DNA of 64,000 nucleotides from Martinezella rhizogenes (lineage in GTDB: Bacteria > Pseudomonadota > Alphaproteobacteria > Rhizobiales > Rhizobiaceae), in the NCBI RefSeq assembly GCF_000799715.1, contig NZ_JUHG01000011.1, positions 1,488,001-1,552,000 of the forward strand, given 5' to 3'. Shown here piece after piece: positions 37,495 to 40,634 of the stretch. The notes under the pieces were generated by a model that saw only the letters and a list, made by a program, of their open reading frames with translations, was not told the DNA's origin and searched no databases. How positions within the stretch are numbered: position 1 is the first letter of the stretch; every line of letters begins with the position of its first letter. Made by a program: the position numbers and the translations under genes.

Positions 37495-37512
37495 CCGTCA
37501 CGGAACTGTCAT
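37495..37512 (+). promoter_or_regulatory. Candidate Pho box upstream of phospholipase C gene
   Basis: CCGTCAC-GGAA-CTGTCAT fits the PhoB direct-repeat pattern CTGTCAY-N4-CTGTCAY: the second repeat is perfect and the first has one change. It lies 88 bases before the ATG of the phosphoesterase gene. No clear -10 box was assigned, but GATAGC lies 8 bases after the box. This indicates control by phosphate limitation. Confidence 0.65.
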
Positions 37513-37599
37513 GTACGCTTGATAGCCCGGCATGGCTCCCTCTGCCCCGGCGCGGCGCAACCAAGCGCCAGGGCAATACCCCCTCGAGAGGATATCACC

Positions 37600-39228
37600 A
37601 TGACCCGTCTTTCGCGTCGCGCCGCCCTTGCAGCCGGCAGCGCGCTTGCCCTTGTTTCGCTCTGTTCCACCGCCGGCGCCGCTGACACGGCGGCGTCGAC
37701 GAATACCGCCACCCCGATCAAGCACCTAGTCGTCATCTTCCAGGAAAATGTCTCCTTCGACCATTACTTCGCGACCTACCCCAAGGCCGCAAACGTCGCC
37801 GGCGAACCGGAATTCAAGGCGGCCGACAACACGCCGACCGACATCAACACGCTCGCCAATGCCGGTCTTATCGACAACAACCCGAACAAGACCAATGCGG
37901 CCAACGGCGCCGATGCCGCGGCCCCCTTCCGCCTCGACCGCACCCAGGCGGCCACGCAGTCGCAGAACCACGGCTACACCGCCGAGCAGGCGGCCTACAA
38001 CAATTTCGCCATGGACCTTTTCCCCGCCAACACCGGCAAGGCTACCAAGGGTGCGGCCGGCGCATTCGGCACCAAGGGCCAGGTCATGGGCTATTATGAC
38101 GGCAACACCGTCACCGCCATGTGGAATTACGCCCAGCATTATGCGCTGAGCGACAATTCCTTCTCCACCAATTTCGGCCCTTCGACCCCCGGCGCGCTGA
38201 ACCTGATCTCCGGCCAGACCAACGGCGTCATCCTGCCGCCCGGCTACACGCTGGAAAAGGACGGCACCTATTCCAAGGGCCGCATCGTGCCCGACAGCAA
38301 TGGCGGCTGGACGGCCATCAGCGACTTCGACCCGACCGGCGACGTCTGTTCCGTCGGCCAGACCGCGCTGATGTACGGCAAGAATATCGGCGACATGCTG
38401 AACGCGCGCGACATCACCTGGGGCTTCTTCGAAGGCGGCTTCGATCTCACCCAGACCAATGCCGACGGCACGACGAACTGCAAGCGCGCCACGACCTCGA
38501 CCGTCACGCAGGTCAATAGCACCGACTACATCCCGCATCACCAGCCGTTCCAGTATTATGCCTCGACGGCCAATCCGACGCATGCGCGCCCGTCCTCGGT
38601 CGCAGCGATCGGCACCACCGACGCTGCCAATCACCAGTATGACGTAACCGACTTCTACGCCGCGCTGAAGAACGGCAGCATGCCGACCGTCAGCTTCCTG
38701 AAGGCGCCTGCCTATCAAGACGGCCATGCCGGCTATTCCGATCCGCTTGACGAGCAGGAGTTCGTGACGCAAGTCGTCAACACCGTGCAGAATTCGCCGG
38801 ACTGGAAAGATACGGCCATCATCGTCCTCTATGACGATTCCGACGGCTGGTATGATCACGCTCATGCGGTCGTCAATCCGTCGAAGCTCGGCGTCAAGGG
38901 CTATGACGTGCTCAGCGGCGATAGTTGCTCGACCGGTACGCCGCTGCCGGGCCTTAATGGCCAACCCGCCCAGGGTCGTTGCGGCTATGGCACGCGCCAG
39001 CCGCTGCTGGTCATCTCGCCCTATGCCAAGTCCAACTTCGTCGACCACACGCTGACCGACCAGACCTCCGTTATGCGCTTCATCGAGGACAACTGGATGG
39101 GCGGCGCGCGCCTCGGCGCCGGCTCGTTCGATGCCCTTTCCGGCTCGCTGAACGCCATGTTCGACTGGTCGAAGAGCGATACGCCGAAGCTGATCCTCGA
39201 CCCGAAGACCGGCAACAGCGCATCCTAA
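37600..39228 (+). CDS. Secreted phosphoesterase, phospholipase C / acid phosphatase family
   Basis: The 542-residue protein belongs to the phosphoesterase family that includes bacterial phospholipase C and AcpA acid phosphatases. The N terminus has a Tat-like signal (SRRAALAAG...LCSTAGAA). The active-site nucleophile region is FQENVSFDHYFATYP (Glu49, Asn50, Ser52), and further metal ligands lie in LYDDSDGWYDHAH. The Pho-box candidate upstream suggests release of phosphate from organic esters or phospholipids outside the cytoplasm during phosphate starvation. It is followed 20 bases later by a di-haem peroxidase gene. Confidence 0.92.
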   Translation: MTRLSRRAALAAGSALALVSLCSTAGAADTAASTNTATPIKHLVVIFQENVSFDHYFATYPKAANVAGEPEFKAADNTPTDINTLANAGLIDNNPNKTNAANGADAAAPFRLDRTQAATQSQNHGYTAEQAAYNNFAMDLFPANTGKATKGAAGAFGTKGQVMGYYDGNTVTAMWNYAQHYALSDNSFSTNFGPSTPGALNLISGQTNGVILPPGYTLEKDGTYSKGRIVPDSNGGWTAISDFDPTGDVCSVGQTALMYGKNIGDMLNARDITWGFFEGGFDLTQTNADGTTNCKRATTSTVTQVNSTDYIPHHQPFQYYASTANPTHARPSSVAAIGTTDAANHQYDVTDFYAALKNGSMPTVSFLKAPAYQDGHAGYSDPLDEQEFVTQVVNTVQNSPDWKDTAIIVLYDDSDGWYDHAHAVVNPSKLGVKGYDVLSGDSCSTGTPLPGLNGQPAQGRCGYGTRQPLLVISPYAKSNFVDHTLTDQTSVMRFIEDNWMGGARLGAGSFDALSGSLNAMFDWSKSDTPKLILDPKTGNSAS

Positions 39229-39248
39229 GCGAGAGAAGGGAGACGGCG

Positions 39249-40634
39249 ATGTCTCAGAAATCCAATCACCGTCTCCTGCCGCTCATTGCACTCGCGGGCG
39301 TCTCACTCGCGGGGGCGAGCATCGGCATGGCGAACCAACCTGCCGCAGATGCTTCCTCGGCCACGAATACCTATGAGAATACGGTGCCACTGAGCGCCGT
39401 TGCCCAACTCGGCAAGAAGCTGTTCTACGATCCCTCACTGTCGGGCGGCGGACAGATGTCCTGTTCCACCTGTCACGATCCGAACAATCACTATGCGCCG
39501 GCCAATGGCCTACCCGTGCAGCTCGGCGGCCCGCATCTCGACCAGCCGGGCATCCGCACCGTGCCAAGCCTCGCCTACAAGATGTCGACGCCGTCCTTCT
39601 CGATCGGGGAGGAAAGCGCTGCCGACGAGGCGGCCGAAGCAGCACCCATGACCGAAGCCTCCGGTGTTGCGCTCGCCAACGCGCCGGCAACGGTTGCGGG
39701 ACCGCTGACCGCGCAAGCGGTCGTCAAGGCCGATGCGGCGGCTGCAAACCTTGTGCCGCAAGGCGGCATGTTCTGGGATGGCCGCGTCGATTCGCTGGAA
39801 GAGCAGGCTTTGCAGCCGATGATCTCGCCCTTCGAAATGGCCAATGCCGACGCGGCAACCGTTTATGCCAAGCTGAAACAGGGCTATGGCAAGGACATCG
39901 CCGCCCTTTTCGGCAACAATGTCCTCAACGATCAGGACATGGCGATTGCCGAAGTCGGCTTCGCGCTTGCCCGCTACCAGATCGAAGAGCCCTCCTTCCA
40001 TCCCTATTCCAGCAAATACGACTACTATCTGCGCGGCAAGGCGACGCTCTCCGACGCGGAACAGCGTGGGTTGAAATTGTTCGACGACGCCAACAAGGGC
40101 AATTGCGCCTCCTGCCATCTCGACAAGTTGCTGGGTGACGGCCAGATGCCGAACTTCACAGATTTCGAATTCGAAGCGCTGGGCGCTCCGCGCAATCCCG
40201 ATATTCCCGCCAATGCCGATCCGCATTATTACGACACCGGCATCTGCGGCCCGCTGCGCAACGACACCTATTCCGCCCAACCCCAGAATTGCGGGCTGTT
40301 CAAAACGCCGACGCTGCGCAATGTCGCCAGCCGCAGCGTCTTCTTCCACAATGGCGTCTACCACTCGCTGGAAGACGTCACCCGCTTCTACGTCAAGCGC
40401 GACACCAATCCGGAGGAGATCTACCCGAAGGATGCCAGCGGGAATGTGCAGAAATTCAATGATTTATCGCCGCAATATCAGGCCAATATCGATGTCATCG
40501 ATGCGCCGATGAACCGCAAGTACGGCGACACCCCGGCTCTGAACGATACGGAGATCGCCGACATCGTGACGTTTCTGAAGACGCTGACGGATGGATATGA
40601 TCCGGCAAAGGCTGGGGTAAAGGCGGCAAAGTAA
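39249..40634 (+). CDS. Di-haem cytochrome c peroxidase / MauG-like protein
   Basis: The 461-residue product has a signal peptide and two haem-binding motifs, CSTCH (72-76) and CASCH (286-290), as in bacterial CcpA peroxidases and MauG-type enzymes. It also has an Ala- and Glu-rich insertion at about 118-169 between the haem domains, ahead of the WDGRVDSLEEQA block. The ATG at 39249 lies 20 bases after the phosphoesterase gene, so the two form an operon under the same Pho-box candidate. It could reduce hydrogen peroxide, or modify the phosphoesterase in the periplasm; neither is shown by sequence. Confidence 0.93.
   Translation: MSQKSNHRLLPLIALAGVSLAGASIGMANQPAADASSATNTYENTVPLSAVAQLGKKLFYDPSLSGGGQMSCSTCHDPNNHYAPANGLPVQLGGPHLDQPGIRTVPSLAYKMSTPSFSIGEESAADEAAEAAPMTEASGVALANAPATVAGPLTAQAVVKADAAAANLVPQGGMFWDGRVDSLEEQALQPMISPFEMANADAATVYAKLKQGYGKDIAALFGNNVLNDQDMAIAEVGFALARYQIEEPSFHPYSSKYDYYLRGKATLSDAEQRGLKLFDDANKGNCASCHLDKLLGDGQMPNFTDFEFEALGAPRNPDIPANADPHYYDTGICGPLRNDTYSAQPQNCGLFKTPTLRNVASRSVFFHNGVYHSLEDVTRFYVKRDTNPEEIYPKDASGNVQKFNDLSPQYQANIDVIDAPMNRKYGDTPALNDTEIADIVTFLKTLTDGYDPAKAGVKAAK

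Follow-up and report, generated by a model that had tools for sequence, protein, structure and literature searches.

Within a 64,000-nucleotide stretch of the Martinezella rhizogenes genome (G000), spanning G000:C1:1488001-1552000 and referred to here as the window, a gene encoding an AcpA-like exported acid phosphatase of family PF04185 is followed by a gene encoding a di-haem enzyme related to BthA and MauG (Table 1). The new observation is that one BthA-like clade of di-haem enzymes accompanies at least four PF04185 subfamilies and, beyond these, a non-homologous metallophosphatase. The di-haem enzyme is likely a dedicated functional partner of the phosphatase, on which it would act physically. 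The overall explanation preferred here, and put forward tentatively, is a PhoB-controlled two-gene operon for phosphate scavenging that includes a dedicated oxidative partner. When phosphate is low, an exported Ser-nucleophile AcpA-type acid phosphatase and a periplasmic di-haem enzyme of the BthA clade would be produced from one transcript. The di-haem enzyme, drawing on peroxide or some other oxidant and passing through a high-valent di-haem state, would then oxidize the phosphatase or its active-site metal, and this oxidation would put the phosphatase into its working form or keep it there.

Table 1. Promoter elements and genes of the phosphatase/di-haem locus (positions in the window)
Feature	Position	Strand	Remarks
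PhoB-type box CCGTCAC-GGAA-CTGTCAT	37495..37512	+	Direct repeat with N4 spacer
TAG of presumed -10 element	37523..37525	+	Starts 10 bases past the box
AcpA-like exported acid phosphatase/phosphoesterase, 542 aa, PF04185	37600..39228	+	Pfam match 8e-74
BthA/MauG-like di-haem enzyme, 461 aa	39249..40634	+	CCP_MauG match 1.8e-37

An earlier note on this DNA, made from the letters alone, had placed a MauG-like di-haem gene 20 bases after the phosphatase gene. Both the family match (CCP_MauG) and the spacing were confirmed, the intergenic gap between the phosphatase stop codon (39226-39228) and the di-haem ATG being 20 bases, and the two genes look like a single transcription unit from which they would be co-transcribed. 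The association is tight among relatives. Across 297 Rhizobiaceae genomes, the phosphatase (E ≤ 1e-30) is found in eight and di-haem relatives (E ≤ 1e-150) in the same eight, and the two genes also lie side by side in the other seven of these genomes. The di-haem threshold was set at a gap in the list of matches, the next of which fall near 1e-93, while 153 of the 297 genomes match at E ≤ 0.001. The nearest di-haem relatives in named genomes, those of Rhizobium sp. ICMP 5592 and R. rhizogenes NBRC 13257, are 92-93% identical. When named-genome loci were fetched by the di-haem protein alone (best 80 of 90), an AcpA-like gene was present in 73 of the 80; among the other seven, three are cut by the upstream contig end (L070, L101, L109), one has another PF04185 gene (L105), and three are taken up below. 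The laboratory symbiont Rhizobium tropici is represented among the paired loci three times (L047, L051, and L055). Rather than standing mostly without the phosphoesterase gene, an outcome that the earlier note had named as telling against its reading, the di-haem gene thus has a PF04185 gene beside it in 74 of 77 assessable loci, many of which are close relatives. In a sample of 398 genomes from the phylum, the AcpA-like gene (≥57% identity) occurs in nine; seven of them have the di-haem gene next to it, in G299 the di-haem gene is truncated by a contig end at a distance of about 3 kb, and G618 has none. The phosphatase/di-haem gap computed for Burkholderia loci is inflated, since the di-haem start was taken from the match.

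The pairing is a property of one di-haem clade. The clade profile separates 24 unsplit places scoring above 340 bits (plus the split one in G299) from 22 complete places scoring below 285 bits. Eighteen of the 24 clade members have a PF04185 gene no more than about 6 kb away, against none of 20 lower-scoring MauG-like genes (Fisher p = 1.6e-7, kinship not corrected for); the latter were drawn as controls from the 22 complete lower-scoring places. The clade members without PF04185 in the phylum sample are those of G073 (contig end), G561, G602 (short contig), G476, and G508, and one gene of G610. The G610 gene groups with the BthA fragment in the tree and adjoins a calcineurin-like metallophosphatase (PF00149), consistent with the description of phosA in the BthA paper as a "putative purple-acid phosphatase." Within Burkholderiaceae, a match to this metallophosphatase was found in 36 of 150 genomes, and the di-haem gene is adjacent in all 30 of the best 30 loci. 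In a set of 249 Burkholderiaceae genomes, the di-haem clade was matched in 132, and PF04185 lies in the 1.5-kb flank of 28 of the 29 best-scoring new loci.

The paired PF04185 enzymes fall into at least four groups with 18-30% mutual identity, namely the AcpA-like group of the window, the TIGR03397 type, the L227/L105 group, and the L237 type, the last seen at one locus only. The AcpA-like gene stands in tandem upstream of the di-haem gene, whereas the TIGR03397-type gene is placed divergently from it, head to head; at L139, for example, the divergently placed phosphatase is of the TIGR03397 type (824 bits). Both arrangements recur on named plasmids: R. leguminosarum pRlvB and R. etli carry an acid phosphatase gene and a cytochrome c peroxidase gene pointing away from each other, and Kozakia has the tandem form. 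A Cupriavidus plasmid region, which is unannotated, was left out of this comparison. None of 10 sequences from the phospholipase C (PLC)-type branch and none of 10 from three sister groups of the TIGR03397-type pairs is paired with a di-haem gene. Of 21 weak PF04185 matches, one (L176, in G459) is paired; 19 of the other 20 are in genomes without a clade di-haem gene, one of which (G328) has a lower-scoring MauG-like gene, and the clade di-haem gene in the genome of L164 lies on another contig. In the di-haem tree, a single clade unites the AcpA-linked enzymes (20, plus two for which no phosphatase was found; support 0.987), and a second unites the TIGR03397-linked enzymes (12, plus one without a phosphatase and one that is cut; support 0.999). 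Thus, the pairing recurs with different phosphatases, each di-haem branch keeping its kind of partner.

The presence of di-haem relatives beside several kinds of phosphatase suggests a dedicated phosphatase helper and not a general peroxide scavenger, and the best reading of the partner role is that of an activator, maturase, or protector of exported phosphatases. The partners have in common that they are exported and hydrolyze phosphate esters, generally at metal sites. A broader proposal, which is doubtful, is that one BthA-like clade serves as a general redox helper of exported phosphatases, keeping each active site oxidized and working; on this view, the clade would have been taken up independently by an unrelated metallophosphatase and by at least four subfamilies of PF04185, with PhoX perhaps a further case, and would couple phosphate scavenging to the redox state of the periplasm.

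The window di-haem protein is closest to BthA (E = 2.5e-69), followed by MauG. Its haem motifs are CSTCH at 72 and CASCH at 286, and both motifs are invariant in 13 diverse clade members, as is the acid-base Glu, listed as E196 in the window enzyme. Y381 aligns with the distal haem ligand Tyr463 of BthA, and C333 and C348 correspond to the BthA disulfide cysteines Cys415 and Cys430; all three are invariant in 13 of 13 diverse members, and C333 and C348 presumably form a disulfide in the window enzyme as well. The inter-haem position is occupied by Trp (W176), as in MauG, where BthA has Ser257. The window protein is so a sister type and not a BthA orthologue, because W176 replaces Ser257. It also falls below the cut-offs of MauG (TIGR03791; 97 bits vs. 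444) and MbnH (TIGR04039; 101 bits vs. 363). The class with which it was compared, the BthA-like di-haem enzymes, corresponds to cluster IIIb of the BthA paper (PMC6405878).

The window phosphatase scores 249 bits against a PF04185 cut-off of 23, and its closest solved structure is Francisella AcpA (PDB 2d1g; E = 8e-125). Residues E49, N50, H124, S195, H313, H314, H376, D412, and D413 match the metal, nucleophile, and substrate residues of the AcpA active site, taken from PMC6635428, where one active-site metal is described for AcpA. The enzyme falls below the cut-offs of TIGR03396 (phosphocholine-specific phospholipase C; 158 bits vs. 580) and TIGR03397 (acid phosphatase; 171 bits vs. 363). 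In the alignment, the nucleophile column holds Ser in each of the paired phosphatases shown, whereas all 10 PLC-branch sequences have Thr there; the unpaired TIGR03397-like sisters likewise carry Ser. Of the initial label "phospholipase C/acid phosphatase," the second half therefore stands on the AcpA-type Ser nucleophile, and the first does not, since the Thr-type PLC-branch genes are unpaired in 10 of 10 cases. AcpA is a homologue of the window enzyme, in which its active-site residues are kept, and no di-haem partner is known for AcpA of Francisella. An RR motif, checked as a Tat-export sign of metal loading, is present in many Rhizobium phosphatase N-termini, not all, and several Burkholderia-type copies have lipoprotein-like N-termini.

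The nature of the presumed oxidation can be approached through the residues of the phosphatases. In a change of the MauG/MbnH type, the di-haem enzyme would covalently oxidize a side chain (Trp, Tyr, Cys, or the active-site Ser), creating a cofactor or switching the substrate range. Such chemistry has been suggested in print for BthA-phosA and for PhoX, as far as the available texts show, and it would agree with the distal Tyr and inter-haem Trp that the window enzyme shares with MauG, with the way in which the di-haem subclade tracks phosphatase type, and with the contrast between Ser in the paired phosphatases shown and Thr in all 10 PLC-branch sequences. However, that Ser is also present in the unpaired TIGR03397-like sisters, and the paired enzymes include a fold without it. 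Metallophosphatases of PF00149 have no Ser nucleophile.

The W, Y, C, M, and H columns were compared among TIGR03397-like enzymes (11 paired, 10 unpaired), AcpA-like enzymes (17, of which 16 are paired), and PLC-type enzymes (10). Across these groups, no Trp, Tyr, Cys, or His is kept in the paired and lost in the unpaired phosphatases. A single Met alone separates paired from unpaired TIGR03397-like enzymes; it aligns with window position 131, which is Ala, and is not shared by the AcpA-like enzymes. The latter have invariant residues of their own that could serve the partner, such as four Cys, W417, Y418, and W499, but these are also retained in G618, which lacks a di-haem gene. A single modified residue common to all paired groups was accordingly rejected as a candidate, and the earlier idea that the phosphoesterase is modified by the di-haem enzyme finds no shared residue to act upon. 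It is possible that the target residue is peculiar to each phosphatase group. Taken with the evidence on both sides, a covalent change of this type appears improbable.

Oxidation of the phosphatase or its metal, as opposed to removal of peroxide nearby, is favored here only tentatively. SapM, which is distantly related to the phosphatase, is less active in the presence of dithiothreitol, for which the authors offered chelation or an altered oxidation state of the metal as possible explanations (PMC6635428). Several observations weigh against an oxidative partner, in addition to the residue comparison above. With regard to its metal version, no bound metal was seen in SapM by electron paramagnetic resonance or inductively coupled plasma mass spectrometry, and inhibition of SapM by 2-phospho-ascorbate is competitive (PMC6635428). 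The relative NPC4 is insensitive to ethylenediaminetetraacetic acid and AcpA is partly sensitive (PMC9837106). No PF04185 gene was found near the clade members at L085, L106, L108, L150, L232, L240, L243, and L245; the first three are the remaining named-genome loci among the 80, and the metallophosphatase sequence search covered the phylum-sample loci, not these three. Lastly, the G618 genome encodes a phosphatase of 70% identity (locus L152) but yields no match to the di-haem enzyme, so the partner is not always needed.

BthA also works very well as a peroxidase in vitro (PMC6405878), a property that agrees with simple removal of peroxide. In this main rival, a periplasmic peroxidase would protect the phosphatase or the starving cell without acting on the phosphatase itself, as the peroxidase family, the acid-base Glu, and the good turnover of H2O2 by BthA (PMC6405878) would allow, and it requires no common target residue. 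A general scavenger, however, would not be expected to be tied to several phosphatase families, and 20 of 20 MauG-like controls are untied to PF04185. Furthermore, bthA and phosA were reported, in the available text, to be up in anaerobic growth. Peroxide removal alone is thus considered unlikely. Separately, G618 offers a natural test of the need for the di-haem partner, and three di-haem branches (L108/L240, L150/L243, and L245) have no phosphatase in the DNA examined. Genes nearby encode, among other products, an FMN (flavin mononucleotide) dehydrogenase at L245, a DUF4139 protein at L243, an FMN-binding protein at L108, and, at L150, both an autotransporter and an FAD (flavin adenine dinucleotide) oxidase.

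The PhoB-type direct repeat that the earlier note had described upstream of the phosphoesterase gene was confirmed at 37495-37512. It departs from CTGTCAT-N4-CTGTCAT at two of 14 positions, and the mismatch count alone is weak evidence, as the window holds six sites with three or fewer mismatches and 16 of 100 shuffles reach that number. Genome-wide, the pattern has 413 matches vs. 151 for its reverse. For the comparison of promoters, 20 of the 33 genome sites with two or fewer mismatches were fetched. A box-N10-TAG frame is common to the window box and the sites before phoX (PF05787), ugpC-like, phytase-like (PF13449), and solute-binding-protein genes, and the last two of the 11-base repeats before a pstS-like gene are also in the N10-TAG frame, the names ugpC (ABC ATPase) and pstS having been assigned from Pfam matches. 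The remaining fetched sites are intragenic or lack the frame. The exact pattern KTCAY-N4-CTGTCAY-N10-TAG occurs at two places in 6.5 Mb, the phoX and window sites, a count that is descriptive since the pattern was composed after both were known; with up to one mismatch, it occurs at 12 places vs. 1 for the reversed control. With a matrix built from five other promoters of the genome, the window site excluded, the window site scores p = 0.002, the floor of 500 shuffles.

The site also coincides with a conserved block upstream of the Rhizobiaceae orthologues, in which the TA of the TAG is kept in 35 of 35 alignment rows. Among 35 Rhizobiaceae loci, window included, 34 score at p ≤ 0.018 and 29 at the floor, the sole exception being L056, where no site was found. 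These counts exclude five of the 73 loci with an AcpA-like gene (L066-L069 and L110), for which no start codon was located, and L112, which is the same contig as L058, was counted once. Five of six more distant Rhizobiaceae orthologues (L113-L118) score at p ≤ 0.004, with L118 weak (p = 0.026), and the three from one genus (L115-L117) have a strong box with different wording. The N10-TAG frame, the matrix score, and the orthologue conservation therefore place the box beyond chance. Its reading as a PhoB site is credible, and control by PhoB in Rhizobiaceae is very likely.

Beyond Rhizobiaceae, two of 34 upstream regions reach p ≤ 0.01 with the rhizobial matrix (Bradyrhizobium lablabi and Thiomonas), and the rhizobial promoter was not found with this matrix in the other 32, where a Burkholderia promoter layout may be missed. 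The matrix matches the regions of G652 (p = 0.010) and G618 (p = 0.024) weakly. Nine TIGR03397-type upstream regions were scored: a full Pho promoter at the floor is present in three, all from one genus (L144, L145, and L234), and p lies between 0.014 and 0.104 in the remaining six. For the AcpA-like pair, a Pho promoter is therefore usual within Rhizobiaceae, but it is not a defining mark of these pairs. Membership of both genes in the Pho regulon, bringing them together through PhoB with no joint function, would account for the promoter conserved in Rhizobiaceae. Nevertheless, the bond between the two genes does not come from the Pho box, because only two of the 34 non-Rhizobiaceae regions have the rhizobial promoter and the pair persists in the rest. 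In addition, the pair is seen in divergent as well as tandem arrangement, and the pairing extends to a non-homologous phosphatase. Co-regulation as the whole explanation is therefore very improbable.

Conserved GGAAC at the box spacer was also considered as part of a promoter for an extracytoplasmic function (ECF) sigma factor. EcfG promoters have a spacing of 16-17 bases, whereas the CGTT of many orthologues is about 10 bases away, and other Pho-type promoters share the box-N10-TAG frame with other spacers; this reading was rejected. Separately, several of the Burkholderia loci L079-L104 have a common block near CGTAATGAAATCGATACCGC, approximately 140-180 bases upstream of the AcpA-like gene, which could be a regulator site replacing the Pho box in Burkholderia.

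A di-haem peroxidase in a Pho operon had been called unexpected at first, but two comparable pairs are already in print, those being BthA-phosA of Burkholderia thailandensis (PMC6405878) and a PhoX/MauG-like pair induced on depletion of inorganic phosphate (PMC8812569). As in BthA-phosA, a di-haem gene of one clade lies downstream of a phosphatase gene, and the distal Tyr, acid-base Glu, and disulfide Cys pair are shared. The differences are that the BthA fragment used for comparison shares about 36% identity with the window enzyme, that the gene grouping with BthA adjoins a calcineurin-like metallophosphatase whereas the window gene adjoins PF04185, and that Ser257 of BthA is Trp176 in the window enzyme. 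No Pho box is mentioned for BthA-phosA in the available text (PMC6405878). The Burkholderia loci show roughly 50% identity with the window enzyme and roughly 38% with the BthA fragment, the latter in line with the published 40% identity between classes A and B (PMC6405878). Together with the window enzyme, they are a probable orthologue group of BthB (class B), for which the available text describes no partner (PMC6405878).

In Flavobacterium, phoX and the MauG-like Fjoh_2477 form one operon and are both highly expressed on phosphate depletion, and a cofactor role was suggested for the MauG-like protein by the authors (PMC8812569). This pair likewise unites phosphatase and di-haem genes in one operon, although PhoX belongs to another phosphatase family and the bacterium to another phylum. 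The hypothesis itself is modeled on MauG with methylamine dehydrogenase and MbnH with MbnP, whose di-haem enzymes belong to the CCP_MauG family and oxidize a specific partner, although the window protein is far below both family cut-offs. In the part of the open-access literature that was covered, no description was found of AcpA-like or TIGR03397 pairs, of a Pho promoter upstream of such pairs, or of a single di-haem clade that partners several families of phosphatase. The paper describing BthA states, in the text available, that its function was not yet discovered. A Pho-controlled pair in a tractable Rhizobium, combined with the recurrent pairing, permits a clear and cheap test of whether the di-haem gene changes the phosphatase. 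If it does, organic-phosphate use in soil bacteria would be under redox control, and assays of recombinant phosphatases made without the di-haem partner would need to be read again.

Three further Pho-like sites were noted in the source genome. A box with 1/14 mismatch and no N10-TAG frame (L120; G000:C4:134856-134873, + strand) precedes a 134-aa exported-looking protein with a C-terminal c-type haem motif, CKSCH, and without a Pfam match at E ≤ 1e-8. Half-sites of the Pho type, spaced 11 bases apart (L119; G000:C1:255163-255191, + strand), stand before the phytase-like gene (PF13449), a likely member of the Pho regulon. Lastly, a Pho box in the N10-TAG frame (L136; G000:C6:299656-299673, + strand) precedes the gene for an extracellular solute-binding protein (PF13416).

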